From Clytia hemisphaerica (lineage: Eukaryota > Cnidaria > Hydrozoa > Leptothecata > Clytiidae): 64,000 nucleotides of DNA. Position numbers and translations under genes: made by a program. Below are positions 9,717 through 45,440 of the stretch, piece after piece. Location of the stretch: NCBI GenBank assembly GCA_902728285.1, contig CACVBU010000250.1:790085-854084 (forward strand), written 5' to 3'. Every line of letters begins with the position of its first letter. Within the stretch, counting starts at the first letter, position 1. The notes under the pieces are model-generated. The model was not told the origin of the DNA. It was given only the letters and a program-made list of their open reading frames with translations, and did no database searches.

Positions 9717-12700
9717 ATAGAGATATGAGAAAAGACAACAGGGGCAGTGCGACACCCCTGCAAAACATGCACTTGCAGGGTATGTGCTGGAGTCTTTTTT
9801 GTCGCAGCTTGTTTTTAGCGTACCCGGAGTTGTTTTTCCGGATAATTCGTTAGTGTTATTAGATTTATTTTACTGACTTAAAGTCTGCGGTAAATATAAG
9901 AAAACTGTTTATCAAGTCGCGTTACGGGAAGCGTGAATTCGAGTCTGTCTTTAAGATTTTGCGTACAAAAGCGTTTTGCAGGCCTGCACCATGCAAAATT
10001 TTGCAGAAAGACCTGGGTGAGATCAAAATGCAGGGTTTGCCCAGGATTTGATGGCTGTTAGTGTCAAAACGTTAAAAGTCAAGACTCGTCAAATGGCTTT
10101 AGATGCTTGGAGAAGAAAAAACAGAATAGACAGTCCTGATTTTATCTATTTTGTCGCAAATTCTGAAGAATTTGAAGCCTGCACATTTTCGATCTTCTCT
10201 AAATTCGTCATCTGAGGGCTCAAGGTCATCTCAATGTTTGTTTTTCTTCTTATGGTTATATTCTGAAATCCATTGCAACAAGGAAAGTCAAATCTGTAAG
10301 GTATGTGGTATTTTTCTCTATTATTTTCATGCCTGCATGTTATCAATTATAATCTGATAAGTGCAGGAAAAACTGCTTCCCTTCCCCCTCTTTCTCTACT
10401 TATCTGCCTATGGCATATGACTTGTCATAATTTTTGGTAGTCAACAAAACCACTTGTTGTGTGTGGTGAGTGAGTGGTGAGTGAGTGGCCAATCATGAAA
10501 TATTTATAAGATATTTGATCAATCGGGGTACGTAGTTACTGTTTGTTTGGCCAATCACTCTGGCTAAGAAAAGGTTGACGACAGGAGATGAATTTGTGGC
10601 AATTTAAGAGGCAAAGCCCCCAATCCGAATTGAAAACAAACCATATGTCATCAGAACTCATTTATTCATTATGTACATAATGCAGCATGTTTTATGTTTG
10701 GTATCAAAATTTAGTTGTTGTGTTATAAATTTTATACTATATTATATACATTATATGCATTGTCAAAATCAAATCAAGATGTACTTTCCAGAGATGATTT
10801 ACATGACAAATTTTGAATCCAAAAACTTCCAAGAAACTAAATGTTAGGTACAAATCATCATTTTGATTGAATTATTCCATTCTGTTGTTTCCTTTAAGTT
10901 AAATATGGTTCCACTCATCTTATTCTAAGAAAAGTTTGAAAATCTCTCATGGATCAAAACACTACCCTCAACATAATCTCAGCAAAAGCTGAAACTCTAG
11001 AGTCAGGTGTGGTACCAAGAGTAAGCACTCTCTGGCGCCCGCGAGCCACCCGTCATTTTTACCAAAGAAGAAATAGTGTTGATCAGACACTATTTCGTAC
11101 ATAAAAAAACAGAGAAAAGGGGTTAAAATAAAACAAATTGTAAACAAAAAAAGTTTAAAATTTCTGACCATACAGTGAAGTACAGCAGAAAGAAAGAGAA
11201 AAAGTTAAAAGGTTGACCGAGAGCCCGGTTCGGAACCCCGTAACCGAGTGGCCGTACACATTGGAAACGAGACAGTGCATTAGCAGACTTTGTCAATGTT
11301 TACAAAGATTTCGCACCAACCACGTGAAGGTGCTAAATAATCCATTGATATAGGGGCTACTGGACAGTATGATGGCAACTAACCTGAAAGTATATAATGA
11401 AGAGGGAATTAGGATCTTTGCAAGCTACACCTACATTAACAAACAAAACAACAAAATTTAAGTCAAACGACAACTGGACAACCAATGAAATTAATTTTAC
11501 ATAATAACTGGCTGACTGTGGGTAACCGCCAACCGCAATGCTTCATGAGCCAAACTATTAAACTTCTTGGATGGGTTTTTTTTGGTTCTGAGAATAATAC
11601 TTACAATTCAGGAAAAGTTCTGCACACGTGCAAGGCATCGAAGTGTATCCATCAAAAAATTGTTGCACACAAGATGGAGAGAAATGGAACCGTACAGGCA
11701 ATTTCCATTTGGAAGGGAACTAAAACAAAATAGAGAAATCATTTTTTCAGATTGTTGTGCAGTTTTCATGACCAGTACTTGACTGGCAGGTGCTGGCCCG
11801 CAAACTAAACATAGTCAAATACAATCTGTTTGTGTACCTCAAAATAGTGCGCGAAAAACCCACACAGCTCTTTCACTCCCCAGAAAAATTTTTTAAACGG
11901 CCAAAACATATTAAAAACATTAGGGTGTCAAGGTCAGAATCACAAAATTTTCAATGTTATTTTTTCTCTTATTTCAAAATAAAACCACAGTAGGTTGGTT
12001 GTCCCGGGGTTGTCCCTTCATGATATGAATTCATGTATAAAACATCAAATTTGGTCAATTTGTTCCAAAATTACGAGGTTTTTAAGTTTTGCCTGGAAAG
12101 GCTTGTAATGACGTCATCACAAAACTTTCAACCTCCATAGCTTTTGATAGGAACATTTTCAAGACATGTTTTATGCCTCGATTTTCATCAGCATTTCACG
12201 CTCTTTCCGCTGGAACCATCAGATTTTGAATATTTTCAAAAAAATAATTTTTTGCCCAGGTGGTAAAATTAGGTGTTAAATATTATTATATTATTTGATT
12301 AGGAATTTATCAAAACTAATTCTATTCGTATGAGACAAACATCATAAATCATGAGACGCAATCAAGCTTGTTCAGAATCCTTATCGAGTCACCAATGAAT
12401 ATTCTGTGAATCTTTTCAGTGTTTTACAGCGTCTTTTCGAACATAAATCTAGTCCCAAAATCCTGAAATTATAGTCCTGAATAAGAAAATATTATCTAAT
12501 ATATACTGTTTATTATATCTTTTAGTTTATTTTTATCTAGGAACGAAACCTATCTAACGATCTGAAGCGGAATTTTCCCAATTCGCTTTTCAAATCACAG
12601 TGTGCCTTTTAGCATCAGGGAAGTAACCATAGCTTCTTCGAATCAAATTATCAATTTACGTTTTTAAACTGATGTGTAAAAACCTAAGCTCCGATTTTTT

Positions 12701-13165: not shown

Positions 13166-13370
13166 CTTAATATTAAATTTTTCTTATTTTTTAGTTCTTG
13201 TTCTAATATTATAATAGAAAAAGTGTACCTAATCTATCTTCGATAGAAGGAAAACTTTTATAAATAGTGCATTATCGAAACATTATCAAAATATATCTCA
13301 AATAATAATAATAATAATAACCATAAAAGCTGAAATTTGTTCCTTATTAATCATAACTCGTGCTGATAAC

Positions 13371-16300
13371 ATGGAACGAAGTAGCTATGTTGTGAGTGCT
13401 CCTCAAGATGAGGAACAAGATATTATCAACCCGAAAAAGGAACTGCGCTGCTCGTTACTGAAAACAACTTTAAAGTCTTTCGTAGTGACACATGTTTCAA
13501 AATACTATCAAGCATGTGGTATTAGAGTGATGTTGCCACACTTATCAAAGGTTGAAGTCTGGCTTGCAAGACAGAAGTTGGAAGAAAGATTGGCATCTGA
13601 GCCACACGTGGTAGAATTTTTTTCGTGTGGAACCGCACTCTATGACGTTAAGAAAAACAACAATGACGATGAACAGCAGGCCATTGCAGGAGTCGCTTTT
13701 TGGATCATGTTTGACTGGCCAGATATGGCAATCGAGGCATATGAAAGCCATATAACGAGGGTGGCAATGGACGTCGGACTTGACACTGTCCATTGCAAGG
13801 CTGTCAAAGGAAGAGGTAAGAAGTTTATATTTTGTCTGGATTTTCTCTCTGTCAATATTTTTTCATTTCGTAACCCGGCTGGCAAACAACGTTGTTTTAA
13901 CGTTCATCTAACGTTGTATGTAACCTTCATCTAACGTTATATGTAACCTTCATCTAACATCGTATGTAACGTTCATCTAACGTTATATGGACATTCTGAA
14001 GTTACATAAACATTTAAACAACGTTGTGTGCCAGCTGGGAAGTAAGATTAAGACAAAAACAAAAAAGGAGGAAGATTTTAAGACGTATTTATGACGAAGA
14101 GATTTAGCTGGGAGGTCTGGATCTAATGGATCTAGCACGTGTGATGTCAAAATTTTGAAAGCAATTTTGTAGCCCGTAACACAATTTAAATTTTTTTGGA
14201 GACTTTGAAATTTGCGGACATTTTTTTGAAAATTTTTTATCACTCTTGTCACTTGCTTATCACGCGTTATCACTTGTTATCCACCTTATCACAGCTTTTT
14301 GTAGAGAAGAGATTTTTACGGACACTTTGAAATTTGCGGACATTTTTTTTGAAAACTTTTTATCACTCTTGTCACTTGCTTATCACTTGTTATCACTTGT
14401 TATCCACCTTATCACAGCTTTTTGTAGAGAAGAGATTTTTACGGACACTTTGAAATTTGCGGACATTTTTTTTGAAAACTTATCACTCTTGTCACTGGCT
14501 TATCACGCGTTATCACTTGTTATCCACCTTATCACAGTTTTTTGTTGAGAAGAGATTTTTACGGACACTTTGAAATTTGCGGACATTTTTTTTAAAAACT
14601 TATCACTCTTGTCACTGGCTTATCACGCGTTATCACTTGTTATCCACCTTATCACAGCTTTTTGTAGAGAAGAGATTTTTACGGACACTTTGAAATTTGC
14701 GGACATTTTTTTGAAAACTTATCACTCTTGTCACTGGCTTATCACGCGTTATCACTTGTTATCCACCTTATCACAGCTTTTTGTAGAGAAGAAATTTTTA
14801 CGGACACTTTGAAATTTGCGGACATTTTTTTTGAAAACTTATCACTCTTGTCACTGGCTTATCACGCGTTATCACTTGTTATCCACCTTATCACAGCTTT
14901 TTGTAGAGAAAAGATTTTTATGGACACTTTGAAATTTGCGGACATTTTTTTTGAAAACTTATCACTCTTGTCACTGGCTTATCACGCGTTATCACTTGTT
15001 ATCCACCTTATCACAGCTTTTTGTAGAGAAAAGATTTTTACGGACACTTTGAAATTTGCGGACATTTTTTTTGAAAACTTATCACTCTTGTCACTGGCTT
15101 ATCACGCGTTATCACTTGTTATCCACCTTATCACAGCTTTTTGTAGAGAAAAGATTTTTATGGGCACTTTGAAATTTGCGGACATTTTTTTTGAAAACTT
15201 ATCACTCTTGTCACTGGCTTATCACGCGTTATCACTTGTTATCCACCTTATCACAGCTTTTTGTAGAGAAGAAATTTTTACGGACACTTTGAAATTTGCG
15301 GACATTTTTTTTTGAAAACTTATCACTCTTGTCACTGGCTTATCACGCGTTATCACTTGTTATCCACCTTATCACACATTTTTGTAGAGTAAAAATTTGT
15401 TTTTTTATCAGGTGTCCGTTCCCTCACTGATGGTTTCGTATCATCGCTGTATATTACCCTAAAAGATCAGAATAATGAAACATTGGTCCATCATTATGCC
15501 AAATCACAAGTTCGATGCTTGAAGGCGGCTGCAGAACAGGAAGGAATCCCAATCGAAAATGTCGAAATGACTGAAGGTGAAAGATACTCGTCGAAGATAT
15601 TGACTTCCCTTTGGCTTTGTAAATCGATGGATACAAACGTTGCAAAAGAACTTAGGAACGCCGTTGAATGTGTCAAAGGAATGATGGCTGTGAAATTGGT
15701 CGACCTAACTTCTGCAGGTAAAAAGAAATATTCTAATTTCACTGTGTGTTTATTGATTATAGATGAAAGACAGTGATAGGTCGTCTTGGTCTCGTTTTAA
15801 TCTTTCCTTCATTTTCTTTTCCAAAAATTCAGACCAACCTGTAATGGCTGCCCCAAGACCTGTCACCCGTCTCATGCAGTGCATCACAATGGTGAAGGCT
15901 TTCATGAACCAATTTGATTACGCGCTTTTCGATGGCTTTGTCTATAAAAAGGTCCCAGAGGCTAGATATACGTTTGTCTTTTGTTCTTCGGTCCACAACT
16001 TTATCCACTTCGTCTTGGGCAACTCGGAAATGGCAGACCAGATTGTGCAGCATGTAACGCAAATAATCAACTTGTTGTCTGAGAGTGCTTGTCGAATTAT
16101 CAAACCTTTACAAATTGATTACAACTTCATTGAGGTCACGCCCTATGGCACTTGCTTCAACATCCGTGAGAAATGCTTTCAGCTTGAACCAGCCGATTTA
16201 AAAGGTACATAATTATCACTGTCTTTTTTAAGATGACACTGTTTAACATTTAAATGGGTTAAAGTGCTGTCGGAAGACTCGTATAAATTGTGAATAAAAT

Positions 16301-18295
16301 CTATTGTTTCTTCCTCTTATCAGGCTCACCACGCGCGTTTGTCAAGTACTTGTATAATCCAGACAGGACACCACATCCCGAACCATTCATCAAAGGCGTG
16401 GAAAACTCTTTTGGAAATCCTAGAATTCGAAAACGGTTTTACAAAAAGTACTACCAGCTACTAATGCATGGCCAGTTTCCACATAAAGAAACCAAATTGT
16501 GTTTGGTTGGCCCACCAGATTCAGGGAAGACCAGTTGGTTCACGCCATTTCAAGGCATCATTCCTGCCCGATACATTGCTGGGGTGATGAACGACGGCCG
16601 TTTCTCTGCTGCCATGATCGAAAGCAATACTCAGATCGTCATGATGGACGAGTGGACACCCGATTCGCTTTCTTGCGAAGATGCCAAACGTGTTTTACAA
16701 GGTGAGTAGTGGTTTTTACACCCATCAATGTACTTGTGGTATTGCTCGAGCGCCTGCTCTTTAGAACATTGAGATCAATTTTATTCACTACTGTCTAATT
16801 TGCCTTGCTTACCATTCAATTTTGGAACTTTGTGTCTTGCTCACTATCTAAATTCTTTCAATTTACTTCTTCACGTGTTCAGGTGGAATGAACTTCGTCC
16901 CACAGAAGCACAAGAACGGATTGAGGATCAATTACAATTCAGGGTTTTTCATCACTACCAACGAATATCCAGATTTTGGTAATCAGACCGATTGCGATGC
17001 CATCCGTAAACGATTGGAAGTATTCCAGACATCATCATTGAAAAGAAGAGACACATCAGTCTCAGGTGAGGGGAACCATTTGATCTGATTATCTTTTTAG
17101 TATTTTTCTTCATAGGAAACAAATTCGAATTGGCTCCGTGTACACTGCTAACCACTTCGAATTTTTCTCTTTTTTCTCAGGCTGGCTGAGAATGAATTGC
17201 ATGGAAGTCTTCCACTATCTTGCGGACTACTTGCGGGACGAACCGATCTTCGACGCTCCAAGTCACCTACAGCCAAACGCCGTCCAAACGGGAGCGATTT
17301 ACAATGACTTCGATTTCAATCCAATGTCCCTTATGTACAGAGACGAGATGGACAGATTTTGTTTGAGTCAACCACCCTCTGCAGGCACCAATGCAGCGAC
17401 CAACGAAAATGTCGACGATGAAGACGAAGCAAACAATGACGACAACACAGCATTGGTTCAAGCACTCGACCATGCAATCATTCAAGCTGACCGTAACGAA
17501 GGAATTCTTTACGAGGACCTCCAGTGGGAAACAGAGCTGTTCGACAACGTAAGCGAGGTCTGTGACACGGATTACATCGAAAAAGTTATCACCCTCGCAG
17601 CTAACGTGCATGATGTTTGGGATTCATTGCAACTGACAGAAAATGCGAAGAATATGTTTAGACGAAGGCTACGAATCAATTGGGAAGGACCCGACACCGT
17701 ATATGACGCTTGGTTGGTGCGAAAGGGATGTAAACGCTCCTGGTTTGATTATCCTTTACTTTACAGCAAGTATCCTGACTTTGACCCTGAAGCAGAACAA
17801 GAGCCACCAACTCAAAAGCCTTTAACTCAACAAGAGGCACGCCCATCATCGGCAAGTGAGGAATCATTTAGCGAAATCACCTCGTACCAACCACCTAGAC
17901 CGGACCTTGTGCCTGAAGCCAAAACTCCAACCAGAACGCCACCGTCTTCGCCTAAATTGGTCATACCGGAGAGTCCTGTCATTCCAAAGCCTTCCACAGA
18001 CAGCGAAAGTTCTATCAACAATGACGTCTTCGACGAACTACCTGCCGTGACATCGTCAGCACCCAATAAAGCAACTAAAAGAAGATCACTCAGTCTCAAA
18101 AGATGCACATCGACAATCTTCGACCAATCCCATCAGCTGGTAACTCTCACAAGCGACGAAGAAGAAAGAGCCAGCAAGAAGGTCAAAGGTAGCGACTCGG
18201 ACTCGTCAATTGAATTTGATGTGACCAGGAAAGTGGATGGCACTGATACTCCCATCATCAACGTACCGTCATCAACTTCTAGTGACAGCGACTGA
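13371..18295 (+). CDS. Superfamily 3 (SF3) helicase protein, six exons, intact
   Basis: Exons are 13371-13815, 15412-15717, 15833-16204, 16324-16701, 16883-17065 and 17181-18295. All introns are GT-AG and all are phase 1, splitting a Gly codon at most junctions. The joined frame is 2799 nt (932 residues) without a stop. Residues near 437-446 are the P-loop GPPDSGKTSW, 478-485 the Walker B QIVMMDEW, and 522-530 the motif C FFITTNEYP with its sensor Asn; a following RKR may supply the arginine finger. This is the SF3 layout known from replication proteins of small DNA viruses and some mobile elements, which form hexamers that unwind DNA at origins. No HUH nickase motif was found in the N-terminal 370 residues, which I cannot place. 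The C-terminal 250 residues are acidic and Ser/Pro-rich. AATAAA lies 47 bp behind the stop. It faces the recombinase gene at 20387-22027. Confidence 0.85.
13873..14039. mobile_element. Small MITE inside helicase intron 1
   Basis: Ends are CCCGGCTGGCAAACAACGTT and its inverse AACGTTGTGTGCCAGCTGGG. The middle is four to five copies of a unit of about 26 bp with AACGTTCATCTAACGTT. It lies just left of the 120-bp array. Confidence 0.7.
14200..15390 (+). repeat. 120-bp iteron array 1 (10 units), in helicase intron 1
   Basis: Ten nearly identical units with a period of 120 bp (first two slightly longer). Read on the minus strand, each unit has six GATAA-type hexamers in the order GATAAG, GATAAC, GATAAC, GATAAG, GACAAG, GATAAG with start-to-start steps of 9, 10, 10, 11 and 9 bp. 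A short A-rich spacer and two TGTCCG motifs 18 bp apart follow. The array ends 20 bp before the splice acceptor of exon 2. The long frames it opens repeat with the array and are not taken as genes. Confidence 0.95.
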
Positions 18296-18341
18296 TATTC
18301 TCGTTTGTAAATTGGTCTTTATTTTTTAAATTTGGTATAAA

Positions 18342-18347
18342 AATAAA
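18342..18347 (+). terminator. Polyadenylation signal of the helicase gene
   Basis: AATAAA sits 47 bp behind the helicase stop codon, preceded by a T-rich stretch, at the expected distance for an mRNA 3' end and before array 2 begins. Confidence 0.7.
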
Positions 18348-18424
18348 GCTTTATGAAAGGTTTACATTATTAGACTTCTTTTCGTCTTCCCTTACACAAA
18401 TTTTCAATTCTTAAAGAACTGTCA

Positions 18425-20150
18425 CGGTGCGGATAAAAGGTGTGATTACGGAAGATAAGCTTGGGATAAGGAAGAAAAGCAAATCGAAAGTGTCCGCCAA
18501 ATTTACACTCTAAAAATGCTGTGATAGTGGGGATAAGCAGTGATAACGAGTGACAAGCTGGGGATAAGAGGGGAATAAGATTTTCAAAGTGTCCGATAAA
18601 AACATTTTCAATGTCCGAAATACTTTGCACCTCAGAATTAGGGGATAAGACGGATAAGCAGTGATAACGAGTGACAAGCTGGGGATAAGAGGGGAATAAG
18701 ATTTTCACAGTGTCCGATAAAAGCATTTTCAATGTCCGAAAGACTTTGCACCTCAAAATTAGGGGATAAGAAGGATAAGCAGTGATAACGAGTGACAAGC
18801 GGGGGATAAGAGGGGATAAGATTTTCAAAGTGTCCGCGAAAAGTATGTTCAATGTCCGAAAGACTTTGCACCTCAGAATTAGGGGATAAGACGGATAAGC
18901 AGTGATAACGAGTGACAAGCAGGGAATAAGAGGGGATAAGATTTTCAAAGTGTCCGCGAAAAGTATGTTCAATGTCCGAAAGACTTTGCACCTCAGAATT
19001 AGGGGATAAGACGGATAAGCAGTGATAATGAGTGACAACCAGGGGATAAGAGGGGATAAGATTTTCAAAGTGTCCGCGAAAAGTATGTTCAATGTCCGAA
19101 AGACTTTGCACCTCAGAATTAGGGGATAAGACGGATAAGCAGTGATAACGAGTGACAAGCAGGGGATAAGAGGGGATAAGATTTTCAAAGTGTCCGCGAA
19201 AAGTATGTTCAATGTCCGAAAGACTTTGCACCTCAGAATTAGGGGATAAGACGGATAAGCAGTGATAACGAGTGACAAGCAGGGGATAAGAGGGGATAAG
19301 ATTTTCAAAGTGTCCGCGAAAAGTATGTTCAATGTCCGAAAGACTTTGCACCTCAGAATTAGGGGATAAGACGGATAAGCAGTGATAATGAGTGACAAGC
19401 AGGGGATAAGAGGGGATAAGATTTTCAAAGTGTCCGCGAAAAGTATGTTCAATGTCCGAAAGACTTTGCACCTCAGAATTAGGGGATAAGACGGATAAGC
19501 AGTGATAACGAGTGACAAGCAGGGGATAAGAGGGGATAAGATTTTCAAAGTGTCAGCGAAAAGTATGTTCAATGTCCGAAAGACTTTGCACCTCAGAATT
19601 AGGGGATAAGACGGATAAGCAGTGATAACGAGTGACAAGCAGGGAATAAGAGGGGATAAGATTTTCAAAGTGTCCGCGAAAAGTATGTTCAATGTCCGAA
19701 AGACTTTGCACCTCAGAATTAGGGGATAAGACGGATAAGCAGTGATAACGAGTGACAAGCGGGGATAAGAGGGGATAAGATTTTCAAAGTGTCCGCGAAA
19801 AGTATGTTCAATGTCCGAAAGACTTTGCACCTCAGAATTAGGGGATAAGACGGATAAGCAGTGATAACGAGTGACAAGCGGGGGATAAGAGGGGATAAGA
19901 TTTTCAAAGTGTCCGCGAAAAGTATGTTCAATGTCCGAAAGACTTTGCACCTCAGAATTAGGGGATAAGACGGATAAGCAGTGATAACGAGTGACAAGCA
20001 GGGATAAGAGGGGATAAGATTTTCAAAGTGTCCGCGAAAAGTATGTTCAATGTCCGAAAGACTTTGCACCTCAGAATTAGGGGATAAGACGGATAAGCAG
20101 TGATAACGAGTGACAAGCAGGGGATAAGATTCTCAAAGTGTCTGCTAAAA
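18425..20150 (-). repeat. 120-bp iteron array 2 (14 units plus a decayed one)
   Basis: Fourteen units of 120 bp, the first few variable, preceded by a decayed copy at 18425-18540. On the plus strand each unit has GATAAG, GATAAG, GATAAC, GACAAG, GATAAG, GATAAG with steps of 9, 10, 10, 11 and 10 bp. ATTTTCAAAG and two TGTCCG motifs 22 bp apart follow. This is the grammar of array 1 in inverted orientation, with a clearly different sequence between motifs. It fills the gap between the 3' ends of the helicase and recombinase genes. Frames of up to 526 codons across it are repeat artefacts. Confidence 0.95.
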
Positions 20151-20386
20151 GGATATTCAATGTTCAAATATACCTAATTCAAATATTTTTTGTTTAAAAG
20201 TACAAGTTTTCTTAAAGATATAGGGATTAGAGAGAATAAGGTTTTTAGAATTTTACCAAATGTAATTTTAGTGAAACAAAAGGATGCAGAAAATCTTCTA
20301 ACTTCACATATACCTAATTTAATTTTTTTTAAATACAATTTTTCAAATACAATTTTTCAAATACTTTCTTAAATTTTATTTCAAAG

Positions 20387-22027
20387 TTACTCAATAAATT
20401 TTCTTGCTTTTGCCCGCATCATCAATGTAGAATTTTTTCTTGAAGGGTGAAATTTATACTCTGGGTCTTTTAAGATGTTAGACCATTTTCCTTGTCCGTA
20501 CTTCTTTATACCCTTTAACAGAAAATTGTCCTCTTCAGTAGTAAAAGCATTCTTCTTGTTTCTTGGCTTTTTTTCGGAGGCCACTTGTTTCATTTCTTCC
20601 TTTTCGATTTCATGAAGAACGATTTTATCTTCTTTTACATCTTTCTCCTTGGCCGATGTAACTTTTATCAACTTGTCCATACAGTCGTTCGCTTTTCTTG
20701 CAACATCTTGTGACTTTCGTTTTTGATAGTGCACCTTGGCAACGTTGGATGTGTGTTTCTGGTCGAGGCTGACAATACGTTGTTCTTCTAGCGTCAGGTT
20801 CTCAGCGCTAGCGGTTTCGATGATCTGCCTATAACGGGTTGGTGTTATATACTTTCCAATCGCTTGATACACCATTCTTCCAAATATATCTCCCAGGTTT
20901 TTAAGCTGGTTTCCGTTTTTACAGACCAGTAAAAAATCACATTTTGAATTCAATCGTGGTCTAACATGATCTACGTAATTTTTCAATTTCGAAAGTACGT
21001 CATCAGTAAAAACAAGTGAATCAAAACCGTATTGTTCTTCAGTTTTAAAGTGTGTTTGATCAATCATTCCTGTTTTCATAGCAGTAAGAACCATCTTCAC
21101 AGTAAGAAATTGAAATGTCATTGGCCTGCTACCTTTAACATTCAAAAACAACAAAGAAACTACGAAAGATGACGCGAAAGAAAGATCGTGGGCAATGTGA
21201 GCATTGATCTTTGATAAATTTACAACTTGGTTATACCTGTCCTCGTGAAAAGGTATCACTTTTTGTAAATCTGCAAGTGACGCCCAGCAATTGATACTCT
21301 CCAAATGCTCGATTGAAAGTAAAGTGTTCCACTCGACCCGCATCTTCTTTCTTAGACATTGTTTGGCACGAGAGAGAAAAACTTCGCTGGTCAGAAATAT
21401 CGCTATTTTGTCCGCGCGTATACCCCTGCATCTCAAAAAGTCTAGGCAATGACTCAATGACTGTAGGTAAGATATCATCCCGGGTTTGCCAAGTTTGCAT
21501 TCATTTTCCAAATATCTCAGAAATCTCTCTATATATTCCGTAGATCCAACACAATATTCCATTAAAGTCAAAGTCAATTCAAAATTTTCTTCCAAATTTT
21601 CCAAACAAAATTTACAGAACTTCATTATTTTTCGGCAAATTTGAAGCGCTTGATTTGCATCTTTGCCACCCCCTCCAGCACTGCATATCCAAAATATAAA
21701 GTCTTTAGCCAGTTGACATTTGTCCGAGAAAGATGAGATGTTCCAAGTTTTATTTCTGATTACTGCTCTTTTTGAAGAATAGATTTTATCTGTGAAAACT
21801 TCATCAACATTAGGTTTACTTTCAAAATAAAAGTACCATCCGTGTTTCGTCACAACATGTTTTCTGCAACCTCTTTGACTGTGGTAGCTATCGCTGTCAC
21901 AATTGGAAACAGGACAAACAAACAAGCCAGCTGCATTTGGAGTCAGCTTGAGCCGTTTAGCTTTGGGACTTGCTCCTTCAACGCCTTCCCAATCTTTCTT
22001 GCTGAAAGTTCTCTTCATCGCGTACAC
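20387..22027 (-). CDS. Tyrosine-recombinase-like protein with C2H2 finger and C-terminal Myb/SANT domain, intact
   Basis: Single exon, 546 residues, no stop or frameshift. Residues 38-62 form a C2H2 finger (C38, C43, H57, H62). The middle is helical. Candidate catalytic residues follow tyrosine-recombinase order: R301 in KGSRPMTFQFL, R398/R400 in TPTRYRQIIETA, H425 in DQKHTSNVAK and Y434 in VHYQKRKS. A charged linker leads to a Myb/SANT domain at about 494-546 (FTTEEDNFLLKGIKKYGQGKW), similar in style to telobox-type single Myb repeats. Proteins of this build seem familiar to me from other invertebrates as unnamed multicopy genes, but I cannot verify that. It converges on the SF3 helicase gene with array 2 between. 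The Myb domain is a natural candidate to bind the GATAA motifs. A recombinase would cut and rejoin DNA through a Tyr-DNA intermediate. The recombinase call rests on motif order. Confidence 0.8.
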   Translation of the reverse strand: MYAMKRTFSKKDWEGVEGASPKAKRLKLTPNAAGLFVCPVSNCDSDSYHSQRGCRKHVVTKHGWYFYFESKPNVDEVFTDKIYSSKRAVIRNKTWNISSFSDKCQLAKDFIFWICSAGGGGKDANQALQICRKIMKFCKFCLENLEENFELTLTLMEYCVGSTEYIERFLRYLENECKLGKPGMISYLQSLSHCLDFLRCRGIRADKIAIFLTSEVFLSRAKQCLRKKMRVEWNTLLSIEHLESINCWASLADLQKVIPFHEDRYNQVVNLSKINAHIAHDLSFASSFVVSLLFLNVKGSRPMTFQFLTVKMVLTAMKTGMIDQTHFKTEEQYGFDSLVFTDDVLSKLKNYVDHVRPRLNSKCDFLLVCKNGNQLKNLGDIFGRMVYQAIGKYITPTRYRQIIETASAENLTLEEQRIVSLDQKHTSNVAKVHYQKRKSQDVARKANDCMDKLIKVTSAKEKDVKEDKIVLHEIEKEEMKQVASEKKPRNKKNAFTTEEDNFLLKGIKKYGQGKWSNILKDPEYKFHPSRKNSTLMMRAKARKFIE

Positions 22028-22550
22028 ACGTCATTTCTCCATATTTTCCAAATAAGCATTTAAAAAGTGAACTTGCCTTTTTGAGAGATCGCATCGATCC
22101 TCTCTTAAATGAACTAATTATCTAGATAATTTCACGTAATTTCAGAAAAAAGGAATTATCTCACTATTTTAATGAAGTTCCTTTTATCCTTTTAATTTCA
22201 TTCTGTGAAATACCGTATTCTTTGATTAAAATGTTTTTTAAATTTAAATATACAATTAGTTCTTTTAAAAAATAGTTGAAATGACTATTAAAATGAGATC
22301 AGAGAGTTCCCAATTGGTTTGGTTCTCTTTACTCTCATTGAATCGTTGTAGAATAGGAACTATTTGTGCATATAGCACCAGCAAGGGAATACTTGTAAAT
22401 GAACAAAAAGTTCCTTTCAAAACAAATTATTTAACTCATTTGTTCCCTTGATAAAAAATGAATCTTACAAATTGAAATAGAAACGATGAACTATGAGTTC
22501 CTTTGGGAATTGACTTTCGGAATATGGAGATCTTAAACTTAAAATCATCA
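22028..22550. other. Upstream region of the recombinase gene
   Basis: This should hold the recombinase promoter, but no clear core motif was identified. TCTCCATATT near 22034 and its inverse near 22515 could be ends of a small element or the edge of the larger module. AGTTCC/GGAACT motifs recur. Confidence 0.35.
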
Positions 22551-22551
22551 T

Positions 22552-23060
22552 CTATATGAAACTACGGAAGACACGAAAGAGATAGCGGATAAGAAAGATA
22601 TCGACTACATAGAAAAACATGTAATTTCAAAACTGAATATAGGAGAAATCAAGGTAAAAATATCAGAAAGAATCGGTACCCTAACACTTGAAAACGAAGA
22701 GAAAAAACATTACCGTCCATTGAAACTTACATTTCAAAGTGAGGAAGATAAAGAAAAGGTGCTAAAGGGGATCTGCAATTCAAGACGCCGTTACGAATTT
22801 AAAGCAACAGACGATCTGTCAAAAAACGAACGAAACCTCGTTAAGGAATGGTGCCAAAAGGCAAAAGAACGAAATATGAAGAAGAACGATGACAGCTTCC
22901 AGTGGAAAGTCCGTGGAAGCCCAAGAACTCGACTTTATATGAAAAAAGTACTTGTACAATAAGAATAAGAACTTTGTTACATTATAAAGATAAACTGTAA
23001 ATTTAAATGAGATTGTTTCATAGAGGTCAATGGACCTGCGAAATATACTTCTATAATATA
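22552..23060 (+). pseudogene. ORF1-only LINE derivative
   Basis: The frame is open from about 22552 to the stop at 22961-22963 and carries the C-terminal half of an L1-type ORF1 protein: RPLKLTFQSEEDKEKV, LSKNERNLVKEWCQKAKERN, then FQWKVRGSP. That half binds RNA. Directly behind the stop are a few codons resembling the end of ORF2 (KDKL-stop) and then the conserved LINE 3' tail with GAGGTCAATGGACCT. The whole endonuclease and reverse transcriptase are missing, so ORF1 is joined to the 3' end. The same 3' tail is found at 4758-4800. This resembles half-LINE (HAL1-like) elements, or it may be a private deletion. Confidence 0.7.
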
Positions 23061-23364
23061 ATATATATAAACTGTAAACATTTTTTCTTAATGTAATAAA
23101 AACGTGTTTTGAACCAATAGTTCATTTTTTTCAATTCCCTTTTGGGATTGTAAAAAAATGATCTGTTAATAAACTGTAAAATGGACCAATCAGAGCCTTA
23201 CAACACTGCTTCATGGCAAGGAACAAATAATCTTTTATGTAGATAATGTTTTACAGTTTTCCATGCCACCGTGCAAGCACATGGGCCTCTATAAATCGCT
23301 CATACATTGGTTTGGTTTATTACAAAGGTTAACTTCAAACAGATATGCAACAATAGTGACAATT

Positions 23365-24608
23365 TCAATCATACTCAAACATTTTCTCTTTCCAAGCTAG
23401 ACCGAGGTTTTCTTTAAAATCTTGTATTGTAGATGATTTAACTACTTTTTCAGGTAGGCTATTCCACTGTTGAATGCCCCGATAGTAAAGGGAGTTGCTC
23501 TGGGGTCCACGGACACCATCGTTCCCGAAAAATCTTACCAGTTCAGAATTATGTGTTCTCATTGGTCTTATTCGTTGGTTAAATTTCTTAGATAGGAACA
23601 CACGATTTTTCATAGTGATTTAAATGTTTAAAGATCTCAACCATATCACTTACCTCACGCCTATATTTTAGACTTAGGATTCCAATTCTTTGTAGTCTGC
23701 TTTCATAACATAGTCGTCCACATGTTTCGACTGCTTTTGTAGCGCGCCGCTGAACACCTTTTATAATTGTGTTTTTTCAGTTTCAGTGATCAAATGACTT
23801 GGGCATATTCTAGGTGGGGCCTGACAAATGTTATGTAAAGTTTACGGAATAATTCAGGAGTTAGATACGTGAAGGTTTGTCTAATTAGACCAGCCATTGA
23901 GTTTGCCTTTTTTACTTGGTTTGATATATGTTGGTCAAAGATCCTTTTCGAATTTTACATGTTTCAGTAAATTTTCTCCGAGTGTGTATTGATGTACATG
24001 TTTAATTATATTCGGCTTACCTAACGTTAGTACATGACATTTGTCGGGATGAAATTTTAAAAGCCACGTATATGACCATTGCTGTAGTCGATCGATGTCC
24101 TTCTGGATTATAAGTGCATCTTCAATTGATTCTACTTTATTGACAAGTTTAGTGTCGTCAGCAAATAGAAAGAGTTGTGATTTAATTGAATCCGGTAAAT
24201 CGTTGATGTATAGAACGAAAAGGGTAGGCCCTATGAAACTACCTTGGGGTACTCCACTAAGAGCTATTTGTTTTTTGGATTCAACTCCATTTACTCTAAC
24301 TATCTGAATAGATCCTTCAGGAAGTATCGGATCCATTCAAGCAACTTATTTCTTATTCCGTAGGCTTCTAATTTGATTAAGAGCCTTTGGTGGGGAACTG
24401 AGTCGAATGCCTTTGCAAAGTCAAAGTATACTGCGTCAACAGCTTTACCGTTAGCAATGTCTTCGGTAGACACATCTAGATAGTTTAGCAGTTGTGTTAC
24501 TGTTGATCGGCGATTGATAAAACCATGTTGCTTGTTAGAAAGTAGTTTCTCTTGCTCTAGATGTGACACAATATGTGTTTTAAGAATCTTTTCCATCATT
24601 CGACACAC
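23365..24608 (-). pseudogene. LINE ORF2, reverse transcriptase part
   Basis: Motifs in order are VCRMMEKILKTHIVSHL, KQHGFINRRSTVTQLLNYLD, the catalytic VYFDFAKAFDSVPHQRLL, then (after a frameshift near 24310) SGVPQGSFIGPTLFVLYIND and the catalytic FADDTKLVNKV. After another break near 23935 the end reads NSLYYRGIQQWNSLPEKVV to the stop at 23365. The upstream RT0/fingers part lies at 25907-26300 (MGPDELHPRMLKELAEYI, VSPVYKKGNKNIAENYRPIS), beyond the 24625-25903 insertion. The family copies its RNA into nicked DNA at the target site. Catalytic Asp residues are present but the frame is broken at least three times. Confidence 0.85.
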
Positions 24609-34179: not shown

Positions 34180-35075
34180 TCAAATACTAGAATATCAAAT
34201 ATAAGCATCAACTTTATAAGAAAAATATCCATAACTTTTGAACCAACAACTTTTAGCATTGGGTGATTGGTTCTTTCAAAGCAGGCATGGAATAGGGCAT
34301 TAAATGAAAATAATTATTTTTCTTTTAAGCATCATCTTTATAAGAAAATGATGTATAACTTTTCAACCACTAAGTTTTAGCTTTTGGTAATTGGTTCTTT
34401 CAAAGTAAACATTGAATAGCGCCTAAAATGGATATGACTATTTTTCTAGTAAGCATCATCTTTATAAAAATCAAAGCAATAACTCTTGATAGACGGTGAT
34501 ATACCCTTCGGTTATTAGTTTTTATAAAGTAAATAAGGGATGGCGCATAATATGTGCATATTTATTTTCTTGTAAGAACCTATTTTATAAGAATCAAATC
34601 AATAACTCTTGATAGATGGTGATATACCCTTCGGTTATTAGTTTTTACAAAGTAAATAAGGGATGGCGCATAATATGAGCATTATCATTTTTCTTATAAG
34701 CAACTGCTTTATAAGAATCAAAGTAATAACTCTTGATAGACGGTCATATACCCTTCGGTTATTAGTTTTTACAAAGTAAATAAGGGATGGCGCATAATAT
34801 GAGCATTATCATTTTTCTTATAAGCAACTACTTTATAAGAATCAAAGAGACGGTCATTTACCTTTCGGTTATTAGTTCTTACAAAGTAGGCAAAGAACGG
34901 CGCATAATATGAGCACATTTATTTTTCTTATAAGCACCTATTTTATAAGAATCAAATCGATAACTCTTGATATACGGTGATATACCCTTCGGTAATTAGT
35001 TCTTACAAAGTAAAGAAGGAACGGTGCACAATATGAGCATATTTTTTTTTCTTTTAAGCTACTACTTTATAAGAA
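34180..35075 (+). repeat. Tandem repeat of about 120-145 bp, left arm
   Basis: Seven or so units share ATAAGCAACTACTTTATAAG, a stretch with ATATACCCTTCGGTTATTAG, and AGGGATGGCGCATAATATG. The array breaks off at 35075 where the Penelope-like piece starts and resumes at about 35915 with the same unit, up to 36230. Confidence 0.85.
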
Positions 35076-35077
35076 TC

Positions 35078-35713
35078 AATGGCAATACCCTCCAGAGAAA
35101 CCTTAACCCTACTGGACGTTCAGAAACCGAAGTTAATGCTGTTAGATGGGTCATTCTCTCAGGTACATCATATGAAAAAACAGTTGAACGCTTTGCTAGT
35201 CGTATCAACAAAACCCTCAGTCATCATCAAATTAAACTTGATATTGTAAAATGTAACGGTTCTTCAATCGGTAGTCTCTTGTTTCAAAACCATATCAAAA
35301 GTAACTTTCCACAAGCTTGTTCTCGGCGTTGTGTTGTTTGCTCCAACGATATTCGTAACGAAAATAGTCATATTGAATCACCAACCAATGGTCGTAGTTA
35401 TCCTGTTGACAGTTCCTTATCGTGTTCAAACTGTGGTATCTATTGTATTTCGTGCTCGTGCTTATCACTCTATGTTGGTAAAACTACCACAAAATTTGGT
35501 CAAAGGTTTAAGGAACATTTCCAAAAATCACGAACCTCGGCAGTTTTGGAACACTCGAAAACTTGTAGTGTTGGTAAAGAGAAAACTGACTTCTCAGTTC
35601 AGTACCTTGAAAACATGTACTCTAGAGGAAAGTACTCTTTGTCTGAAAGGGAGTACTTATGGAATGAACGTTTAAGAGGTGTCCTGAATATCCAGAAAAC
35701 GTTGAAAAGTTAA
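35078..35713 (+). pseudogene. Penelope-like GIY-YIG endonuclease part, second copy
   Basis: The open frame carries NLNPTGRSETEVNAVRWV, then INKTLSHHQIKLDIVKCNG, a Cys-rich linker (RRCVVCSND, SCSNCGIYCISCSCLS) and the GIY-YIG core LYVGKTTTKFGQRFKEHF. It ends KYSLSEREYLWNERLRG to TAA at 35711. It differs clearly from the copy at 2965-3723, so it is another Penelope-like lineage. The nuclease part has no internal stop, but the reverse transcriptase is absent, so it is a 5'-truncated insert in the repeat array. Its start at 35078 is the array junction, not a true start codon. Confidence 0.75.
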
Positions 35714-35821
35714 TTTGATAGTTTGATTATTTTGATTTTGTCCTTATACTTCGTCTCATTTTATCATTTTACTTGCACTTTTAATAACCTAATTTTTATT
35801 TATTTTTAGAACACTAAATAA

Positions 35822-35859
35822 TTACTGATGATGATATTAATATATCGAAACATGTTTAA
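35822..35859 (+). ncRNA. Candidate hammerhead-like core behind the second Penelope-like ORF
   Basis: CTGATGA (35825-35831) and GAAA (35847-35850) flank a 5-bp stem II, GATAT (35833-35837) with ATATC (35842-35846). Stem III would be only AC/GT and stem I only TTA/TAA, so it is weaker than the copy at 3878. One extra T lies before stem II. Confidence 0.4.
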
Positions 35860-37646
35860 AAATAAAAATTAACATTACTCCTGTCAAGTTCGTTCGACTA
35901 TGTCTTGCTATTGACTTATTATTTATAAGAATCAAATCGATAGCTTTTCATAGATGGTCATATACCTTTCGGTATTTATCTCTTACAAAGTAAGTAAGGG
36001 ATGGCGCACAATATGAGCATTATCATTTTCCTTATAAGTAACTACTTTATAAGAATCAAATCGATAGCTTTTCATAGATGGTCATATACCCTTCGGTAAT
36101 TAGCTCTTACAAAGTAAACAAGGGACGGCGTATAATATGAGCATATTAATTCTTCCTATAAGCAACTACTTTATAAGAATCAAATAACTCTTGGTAGAAT
36201 GGTATATACCTTTCGGTAGTTACTGTATTCCTTCAAATACACGCTCCTTCTCTGAGGAGAAAGATGCCTCCCCTCAATGGGAGGTGTTAAATTTTTTAAT
36301 TAACACCCCTCGAATAAACACCTCTCCTGAAAGTCTTAAAATTAAAAAGACGCCCAGGGTGTTTATTCGAAAAAATACGGTAATTTTTACAAAGTTAACA
36401 ATGGAGAACATGTTAAGAATATCTTTCGGCTAAAACCTAAAAAAAAAAGAGTATCCAAACTCTTTTTAAAAAAGTGAACCCATCTAGATCTAGCAAGGTG
36501 AGCACAAGATTCGGATTTTCTATTTTTTTATCGGTACAACCTAATGAAAAAATACAATATAATGAGATCTTCGATAGAACCTCGACTCAAGATAGTCGCA
36601 CCTATGTAAACTTTATTGATTTTGTAGGTATGGATTGCATTTCTTTACATTACAGTGAGATAAAGTAAAATTCTATGGTTGTCTTTACCAATACATGGAC
36701 TAATTTATGATTAAAAACACTCCCTTTTCCTTTTCATAGCTCGATCTACGAGCAATTTCATTATATTTGATTGAATTATCCAATGAAATAGAGTAGGATT
36801 ATTGAAGCTGTGATTCTTGTTCGAACTTTAAATTTTGAAGATTGTTATATATTTCAGGAATATTTTGACACTGATTGTTAAAGATATTAAAAAAAATACA
36901 TGCCTTGTTTTCCCCTTAAAAATTAAACTAAGGCAAAATATTCGACTTTATTTTTTTCTAAGTGGAATCGGCATTCTGCAACAGCTCTATCGAAAGAAAT
37001 AGGGAATTTTTCTAAATCTAACATTATAGTTTACAAGTATTTTATAAGAACAAGGATTTTTTCTAAGTGGAATAGGCTTTTGCGAGATTTGATTTATCAA
37101 ACAATAGCTAACAAATATTGTTTAAGAGTTATGAATTGTGTTCTTATAAAGTTGATGCTTATAAGAAAAATAAATTTTTCTAGCTTAAACACAATCATAT
37201 GTTTACTTTTAAAGAACCAATCGCCGAAAGCTAATATCTATTGTTTGGAGTATTATGAATTGTGTTCTTATAAAGTTGATGCTTATAAGAAAAACAAAAT
37301 TTTTTTTAGCACAGTCCCCTAGTTTCTTGTAGAACCAATCGCCGAAAGCTAATATCTATTGGTTTAAGAGTTATGATTTGTGTTCTTATAAAGTTTATGC
37401 TTATAAGAAAAATAAATTTTTCTAGCTTAAGCACAATCTTATATTTGCTTTGTAAAACCAAACTCCGAAAGCTAATAATCATTGGTTTAAGAGTTATGAA
37501 TTGTGTTTTTATAAAATTGACTCCAAAAGGTCGTGTTTTACATATCTGTGAAGCTCGAAATTACATAGTTGCGCAAAATAATTACACGATTGTGGAGAAA
37601 TTACATAATATCTCGAGTTAGGTACTGAAATCACCTATACTATACC

Positions 37647-44639: not shown

Positions 44640-45440
44640 TGTAATAACCAGAAAAAAGTTTTTTATTAGTACGTTGTAATCCAGTCATACATATTTAGTA
44701 TCAACAAATTTATACAAGCACACTTGTTTGATTTGACGTTTTAAGACGGGCGAAATCTTCTAGAGAACTACCCTTTTGGAGGGTCTGTTCGGTGCTAGTA
44801 TTTTTCTGTCTTTTTGAAAATGAGAGTTTTTTATTGGCAAGTTTTCCAGTCATCCAGTCATACATATTTTGTATTAAAAATATATGTAAGCACACTTGTT
44901 TGATTTGACGTTTTAAGACGGGCGAAATCTTCTAAAGAACTACCCTTTTGGAGGGTCGGTTCGGTGCTAGTATTTTTCCGTCCTTTTGAAAATGAGAGTT
45001 TTTTATTGGCAAGTTTTAACCCAGTCATACATATTTTGTATTAAAAAATATATGAAAGTAGCACACTTGTTTGATTTGACGTTTTAAGACGGGCGAAATC
45101 TTCTAAAGAACTACCCTTTTGGAGGGTCGGTTCGGTGCTAGTATCTTTCTGTCTTTTTGAAAATGAGAGTTTTTTATTGGCAAGTTATAATCCAGTCATA
45201 CATATTTTGTATTAAAAAATATATGAAAGCACACTTGTTTGATTTGACGTTTTAAGACGGGCGAAATCTTCTAAAGAACTACGCTTTTGGAGGGTCGGTT
45301 CGGTGCTAGTATTTTTCCGTCCTTTTGAAAATGAGAGTTTTTTATTGGCAAGTTTTAATCCAGTCATACATATTTTGTATTAAAAAATATATGTAAGCAC
45401 ACTTGTTTGATTTGACGTTTTAAGACGGGCGAAATCTTAA
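44640..45440. repeat. Tandem repeat of about 170 bp, five units
   Basis: Units start near 44720, 44892, 45063, 45232 and 45400 and share CACTTGTTTGATTTGACGTT, GGGCGAAATCTTCTAAAGAA, CTTTTGGAGGGTCGGTTCGG and AATGAGAGTTTTTTATTGGC. The last unit is cut. The array lies inside the gap of the gag-like gene. Confidence 0.9.

Follow-up and report, generated by a model that had tools for sequence, protein, structure and literature searches.

The window analysed here is a stretch of 64,000 nucleotides from the hydrozoan Clytia hemisphaerica (C180:790085-854084), whose 417-Mb genome was searched for related sequences. It carries a gene for a superfamily 3 (SF3)-like helicase and, convergent with it, a gene for a tyrosine recombinase (YR)-like protein, together with two arrays of 120-bp units, here called iterons. 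An earlier note on this DNA had described both genes as intact, and this held: the frames are open over 932 amino acids (aa) in six exons and 543 aa in one exon. The note had also placed the module at 13371..22027, which proved too narrow. Judging from borders and copies, what lies here is a mobile element with two genes, one of many such copies in the genome, at window positions 13319-23246. Its features are as follows.

13319-13345, plus strand: left end, begins AACCATAAAAGCTGAAATTTGTTCC; matches the right end as an imperfect inverted repeat
13371-18295, plus strand: SF3-like helicase gene, six exons, 932 aa, open spliced frame
13371-13815, 15412-15717, 15833-16204, 16324-16701, 16883-17065 and 17181-18295, plus strand: helicase exons, with GT..AG introns
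16324-17065, plus strand: helicase core, exons 4-5
14190-15389, plus strand: iteron array 1, 10 x 120 bp, 96% matches, in helicase intron 1
18531-20129, minus strand: iteron array 2, 13.3 x 120 bp, 97%, mirrored motif order, between the 3' ends of the genes
20390-22018, minus strand: tyrosine-recombinase-like gene, one exon, 543 aa, open frame
22545-23068, no strand: foreign insertion of about 524 bp, in the window copy only and not part of the element
23220-23246, plus strand: right end, GGAACAAATAATCTTTTATGTAGATAA

At the borders, the DNA matches of other copies begin at window 13302-13319 and stop at 23246, and the left end lies 52 bp upstream of the helicase start codon. Junctions were sharp and flanks differed at both ends, with AACCATAAAAG present in 8/8 left ends chosen without selecting for it and CTTTTATGTAGATAA in 16/16 right ends. 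The other 15 of the 23 left flanks had been picked through the left-end pattern and carry no weight for the conservation of AACC; the eight unselected ones do count. The two ends are imperfect inverted repeats with CATAAAAG..TTTGTTCC as their common inverted sequence; AA precedes the C of the left end and follows the GAT of the right end. The 27-base right-end pattern was found at 21 places in the genome at up to three mismatches (control, 0), and the left-end pattern, with 26 matches, is weak alone since its reversed control gave 45. Combining them gave 13 pairs of a left and a right end in the correct order and orientation, 9.9-21.1 kb apart, and matches to both genes lay between the ends in all 13. 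The arrays were considered as element ends and rejected, as the true ends lie 0.9 kb and 3.1 kb beyond them. We treat 22545-23068 as a foreign insertion because in other copies the sequences matching window 20120-22544 and 23068-23246 follow each other almost without a gap; the insertion has TAAACT on both sides and a 139-aa frame without a Pfam match. Elsewhere, C643:294571-332300 packs two family members into 40 kb, and the ends of one of them lie 21 kb apart. Window 11279-12005 is a repeat of about 730 bp that is present in high copy number, with at least 35 copies at 92-94%.

Besides borders, the earlier note had proposed a search for empty sites, and one was found in a related lineage. 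Recombinases of that lineage have 47-48% identity to that of the window; its right border is common to nine copies, in eight of them to the last base. C628 is the counterpart of the C352 locus without the element, 97-99% identical left of the insertion, and could be an allele or a duplicate of that locus. This single empty site reads AAATCTCA|GTATTTAC, and C352 has the element between these two parts with zero target duplication. A DDE enzyme is expected to leave a fixed target-site duplication, which this comparison of C628 with C352, one empty site, does not display. Moreover, in C577 a right end is directly joined to a left end, and the following 772 bp are 96.6% like the left part of C352. 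Together, these sequences show mobility and clean integration; clean integration and end-to-end joining are what would be predicted for a tyrosine recombinase acting on a circle.

The direct repeat at the ends is AA in the main lineage and 0-1 bp in another. Several targets are AAT microsatellites (C180, C643 and, by its right flank, C768). The main family probably duplicates at most AA at its target, because in our own reading of the flanks the removal of one AA restores the repeat register in C180 and C643. Next to the window copy, a dispersed repeat resembling a long interspersed element (LINE) occupies 23243-24500, with a reverse transcriptase match on the minus strand (E=3.3e-12), and starts at the right end of the element, which may sit in its AAT tail. 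At C18:1640403 and C714:665022 the left flanks are alike (22/24 letters) and the right flanks differ, perhaps reflecting a shared repeat as target.

The genome search returned at least 90 recombinase matches (80 of 638 candidates scored) and at least 103 helicase matches (49 of 667 candidates scored). Merging by script the 90 matches to the recombinase and 35 typed matches to the helicase gave 79 and 28 loci, respectively; these numbers are lower bounds, and two helicase stretches of C850 count as one locus. A recombinase lay within 15 kb at 17 of the 28 helicase loci, with about 0.006 expected per locus by chance, and the genes converged in 17/17. The pair is found together elsewhere in the genome, and the earlier note had made its proposal depend on this. 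The other 11 helicase loci had no recombinase within 15 kb among the matches scored. On reading, one of these (C788) has a recombinase, with a frame of 655 codons from stop to stop, plus an array, and another (C340) has fragments of recombinase DNA next to the helicase; C694 had none in the 10 kb read, and for the other eight loci the result is that of the search.

Reading 10 kb on the helicase side of C380, C352, C355 and C883, with recombinases also taken from the genome search, revealed a convergent recombinase and two arrays in each. In the C694/C788 family, the reading combines two copies: C694 for the first array, C788 for the second array and the recombinase. These sequences show a two-gene, two-array layout kept in five diverged lineages, mirrored in three of the five and in the window. 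Matches ending at one point had first suggested that C694 represents a helicase-only family without recombinase. This was rejected because five of seven further copies (C788, C431, C281, C412 and C423, with about 30 bases in C281) continue in shared sequence where C694 departs, and because C788 holds an array and a recombinase; C827 runs into N at the departure point, and the C459 stretch missed it.

Within these elements, the parts have not always diverged together. The recombinases of C180 and C768 are 100% identical and their helicase exon 4 only 83%, and for C180 and C468 the values are 92% and 87%, respectively. In C38 and C768 the units of array 2 are the same as in C180, and in C714 array 1 differs from that of C180 although the recombinase is 99% identical. 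From these comparisons, the recombinase, array 2 and the right end seem to travel as one module. Separate module histories, as between C180 and C768, would also fit two independent elements nested by chance, which we regard as extremely improbable: one inverted-repeat end pair encloses both genes in the 13 two-ended copies, and convergence was without exception. Exchange between elements accounts for the identity conflict, whereas the shared ends contradict nesting.

The recombinase consists of an N-terminal C2H2 motif, a catalytic set R298, K325, R395, H422 and Y431, and a C-terminal Myb/SLIDE domain. In an alignment of 22 homologues, the R-K-R-H-Y set was invariant (22/22) and the C2H2 residues C35, C40, H54 and H59 nearly so; the first position of HxxR holds T, N or H. 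Pfam confirmed the Myb domain in the window recombinase and identified Myb-type domains in 12 of the 22 homologues. The spacing from H to Y is nine residues, the same as in XerD and lambda Int, and that from R to Y is 133 against 131 in XerD, counted between the catalytic residues of these enzymes. The C2H2 and Myb parts named in the earlier note were borne out; for the part between them, assignment to the tyrosine recombinases is supported by residues and by the style of integration, and not by a profile or fold match.

Fourteen recombinase pairs were used to estimate the ratio of nonsynonymous to synonymous substitution rates (dN/dS). It was 0.09-0.15 in six pairs at 90-96% aa identity, 0.06 and 0.09 in two pairs at 84-87%, and 0.26 in one pair at 99% with few changes; dS was saturated in five pairs. 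These values indicate purifying selection, with dN/dS near 0.1. Among the matches scored, nine recombinases of the window's subfamily, at 92-100% identity, align over their full length without a stop; others, such as those of C775, C460 and C793, contain stops. The alternative raised in the earlier note, a domesticated copy, found no support, with five copies on different contigs having recombinases 99-100% identical. Genome-wide, at least 128 phage-integrase (PF00589) matches come from other YR elements of the same genome, several of them nearly identical to each other.

For the helicase, nine cores were compared. Walker A residues K68, T69 and S70, the acidic pair D108 and E109, and N152 of motif C were invariant in 9/9; the C768 core has SAKT in place of SGKT. 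Compared with the window core, those of the far element lineages reach only 26-34% identity. In Pfam, the whole window helicase matched PPV_E1_C at E=0.003, below the Pfam cut-off, with no match outside residues 426-549; the window core alone matched PPV_E1_C at E=2.1e-4 (21 against a cut-off of 26.5 bits) and DUF5906 (18.7 against 27.6). Across the nine cores, DUF5906 was matched by five (best 1.7e-6), PPV_E1_C by four and Parvo_NS1 by one (0.041), and GTPase and AAA models by one core each (0.17-0.24). In the PDB, a DNA primase profile came first (3.5e-4), ahead of a REM1 GTPase (0.0047) and Replication protein E1 (0.022); below these came many GTPases. SF3, which the earlier note had proposed from motifs, remains the best reading by these motifs and the primase and E1 matches, with no curated cut-off exceeded.

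A YR integrase occurs in some polinton-like viruses and a primase-SF3 helicase in some, according to PMC4642659, and the element could be a capsid-less virus of this kind or another DNA-virus provirus. We consider such an origin very unlikely. In the window copy, the only other long frames are array read-through, as judged from a survey of long open reading frames and not a profile search covering every frame; other copies were not scanned for capsid genes. Moreover, no relative was found in viral contigs (helicase; recombinase alignment) or in prokaryotic contigs (recombinase alignment), the eukaryotic search covering the host genome.

The earlier note had located the two 120-bp arrays in helicase intron 1 and between the gene 3' ends, in opposite orientation, and the repeat analysis agrees. 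Array 1 and array 2 have no blastn match to each other. Counting 8-mers present at least three times in each array, 14 were shared mirrored and 1 direct. Words common to both arrays include CGGACACTTTGA, CTTGTCACT and CGTTATCACT, and TTATCCACCTTATCACA occurs 11 times in the window at up to three mismatches, against 0.21 expected. The mirrored and direct counts were 15/1 in C380, 18/8 in C352, 6/0 in C680, 147/1 in C694/C788 and 14/1 in C730. The far lineages have iterons of another sequence than the window, with GACCGT motifs or a 128-bp unit; C883 retains TTATC words. Intron 1 also contains a small inverted repeat (13874-14039) with 23-bp tandem units, partly common to C793. Outside the element, tandem arrays also lie at window 34202-37520 and 44657-45438 (118-124 bp and 168 bp).

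Taking borders, copies and genes together, we think it likely that this is an element with two genes that leaves its site as a circle, replicates by means of its SF3-like helicase acting at the iterons, and re-enters the genome through tyrosine recombination. The recombinase (C2H2 - YR - Myb) would act at both ends and release the circle, whose junction would read GTAGAT-AA-CCATAAAAG. Once joined, the end tips would form an inverted-repeat core, CTTTTATG-TAGATAAC-CATAAAAG, with 8-bp inverted arms around 8 bp. The helicase would bind the iteron arrays and unwind them, host polymerases would copy the circle, and the recombinase would insert it at a short A/T-rich target, duplicating nothing or AA at most. 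The excise-replicate-reinsert cycle suggested in the earlier note has gained borders, 13 two-ended copies, an empty site and an end-to-end junction; excision, the circular intermediate, the arrays as origin and episomal replication are steps that we infer. On balance, and with less assurance than for the cycle itself, we favour placing it in a new class of eukaryotic transposable elements, as a plasmid that integrates and replicates itself and has its own integrase, replication initiator and paired iteron arrays. Its initiator and iterons would diversify together, like plasmid incompatibility groups, and its recombinase-plus-ends module would be swapped among lineages.

Several observations weigh against this interpretation. 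Replication and an iteron origin are read from the layout of arrays and genes. No joined ends of the window's own subfamily were present in the assembly, and no empty allele was found for the C460 copy. On the recombinase side, no Pfam YR model exceeded its cut-off (Phage_int_SAM_1 matched 2/22 homologues, best E=0.068), a PDB profile search matched only the Myb part plus one zinc finger at 1.6, and comparison to YR profiles with hhalign gave no match, nor did its positive control. A single-sequence structure model of the window recombinase was unusable (pLDDT 36). The SF3 matches of the helicase are weak, and small GTPases rank among them. Finally, two loci break the mirror rule: in C883 both arrays have the same orientation (0/85), and in C355 they share no motif (0/0).

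In two more copies, C680 and C730, the recombinase is present along with both arrays, and no helicase was detected between their ends with the window and C883 proteins as queries; their left end, judged from these two copies, lies just before the arrays. Since arrays are kept there without a helicase, we suggest that the arrays are needed in cis and that the helicase may act in trans. The same two copies would suit a Crypton-like YR transposon whose helicase, instead of initiating replication, helps it to transpose or to escape silencing and whose arrays have a regulatory role or are bound by the Myb domain; the Myb domain of the recombinase could indeed bind them. We hold this to be unlikely, although less so than a viral origin. 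The helicase is kept in lineages with recombinases only about 39-48% identical, the arrays flank the helicase core and not the ends, and every SF3 helicase that we know of is a replication initiator.

Known eukaryotic transposons copy themselves through RNA, by rolling circles, by cut-and-paste with repair or, for Polintons, with their own polymerase. If the proposed cycle is true, it adds a replicate-as-a-circle route for transposons, offers natural autonomous origins and connects transposons to small DNA viruses and plasmids. Systems that work in a similar way combine a recombinase with a replication initiator or repeats: Staphylococcus aureus pathogenicity islands (SaPI) and integrative and conjugative elements (ICE), which are bacterial integrative elements with iteron origins, and the yeast 2-micron plasmid. 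These are bacterial or yeast systems, compared here solely through XerD and lambda Int spacing, and the likeness would be one of working. SF3 initiators act as an initiator plus its binding sites; the helicase core weakly resembles PPV_E1_C and DUF5906, but it scores under the Pfam cut-offs, which gives no membership in papillomavirus E1, and it is linked to a recombinase. Helitrons combine HUH with a superfamily 1 (SF1) helicase and have 5' TC and 3' CTRR ends; the ends here differ and the helicase resembles SF3. A pairing of recombinase and SF3 helicase in animals was not found among the open-access papers listed, judged by title and the opening of the abstract (Repbase and most subscription papers were outside the search), in line with the earlier note, which knew of no named class with it. 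Polinton-like viruses and virophages are alike in that YR integrase and SF3 helicase occur among them (PMC4642659), but they share capsid proteins and a packaging ATPase, and none was seen among the long frames of the window copy. Cryptons are YR DNA transposons of eukaryotes without terminal inverted repeats and with short terminal direct repeats, and the word helicase is absent from the paper that describes them so (PMC3212892). The element shares with Cryptons a YR-type enzyme, the lack of a DDE transposase, little target duplication and a proposed circular intermediate (PMC3212892). It differs from them in its inverted-repeat ends, in the SF3-like helicase enclosed by those ends, in its iteron arrays and in the C2H2 and Myb parts of its recombinase.

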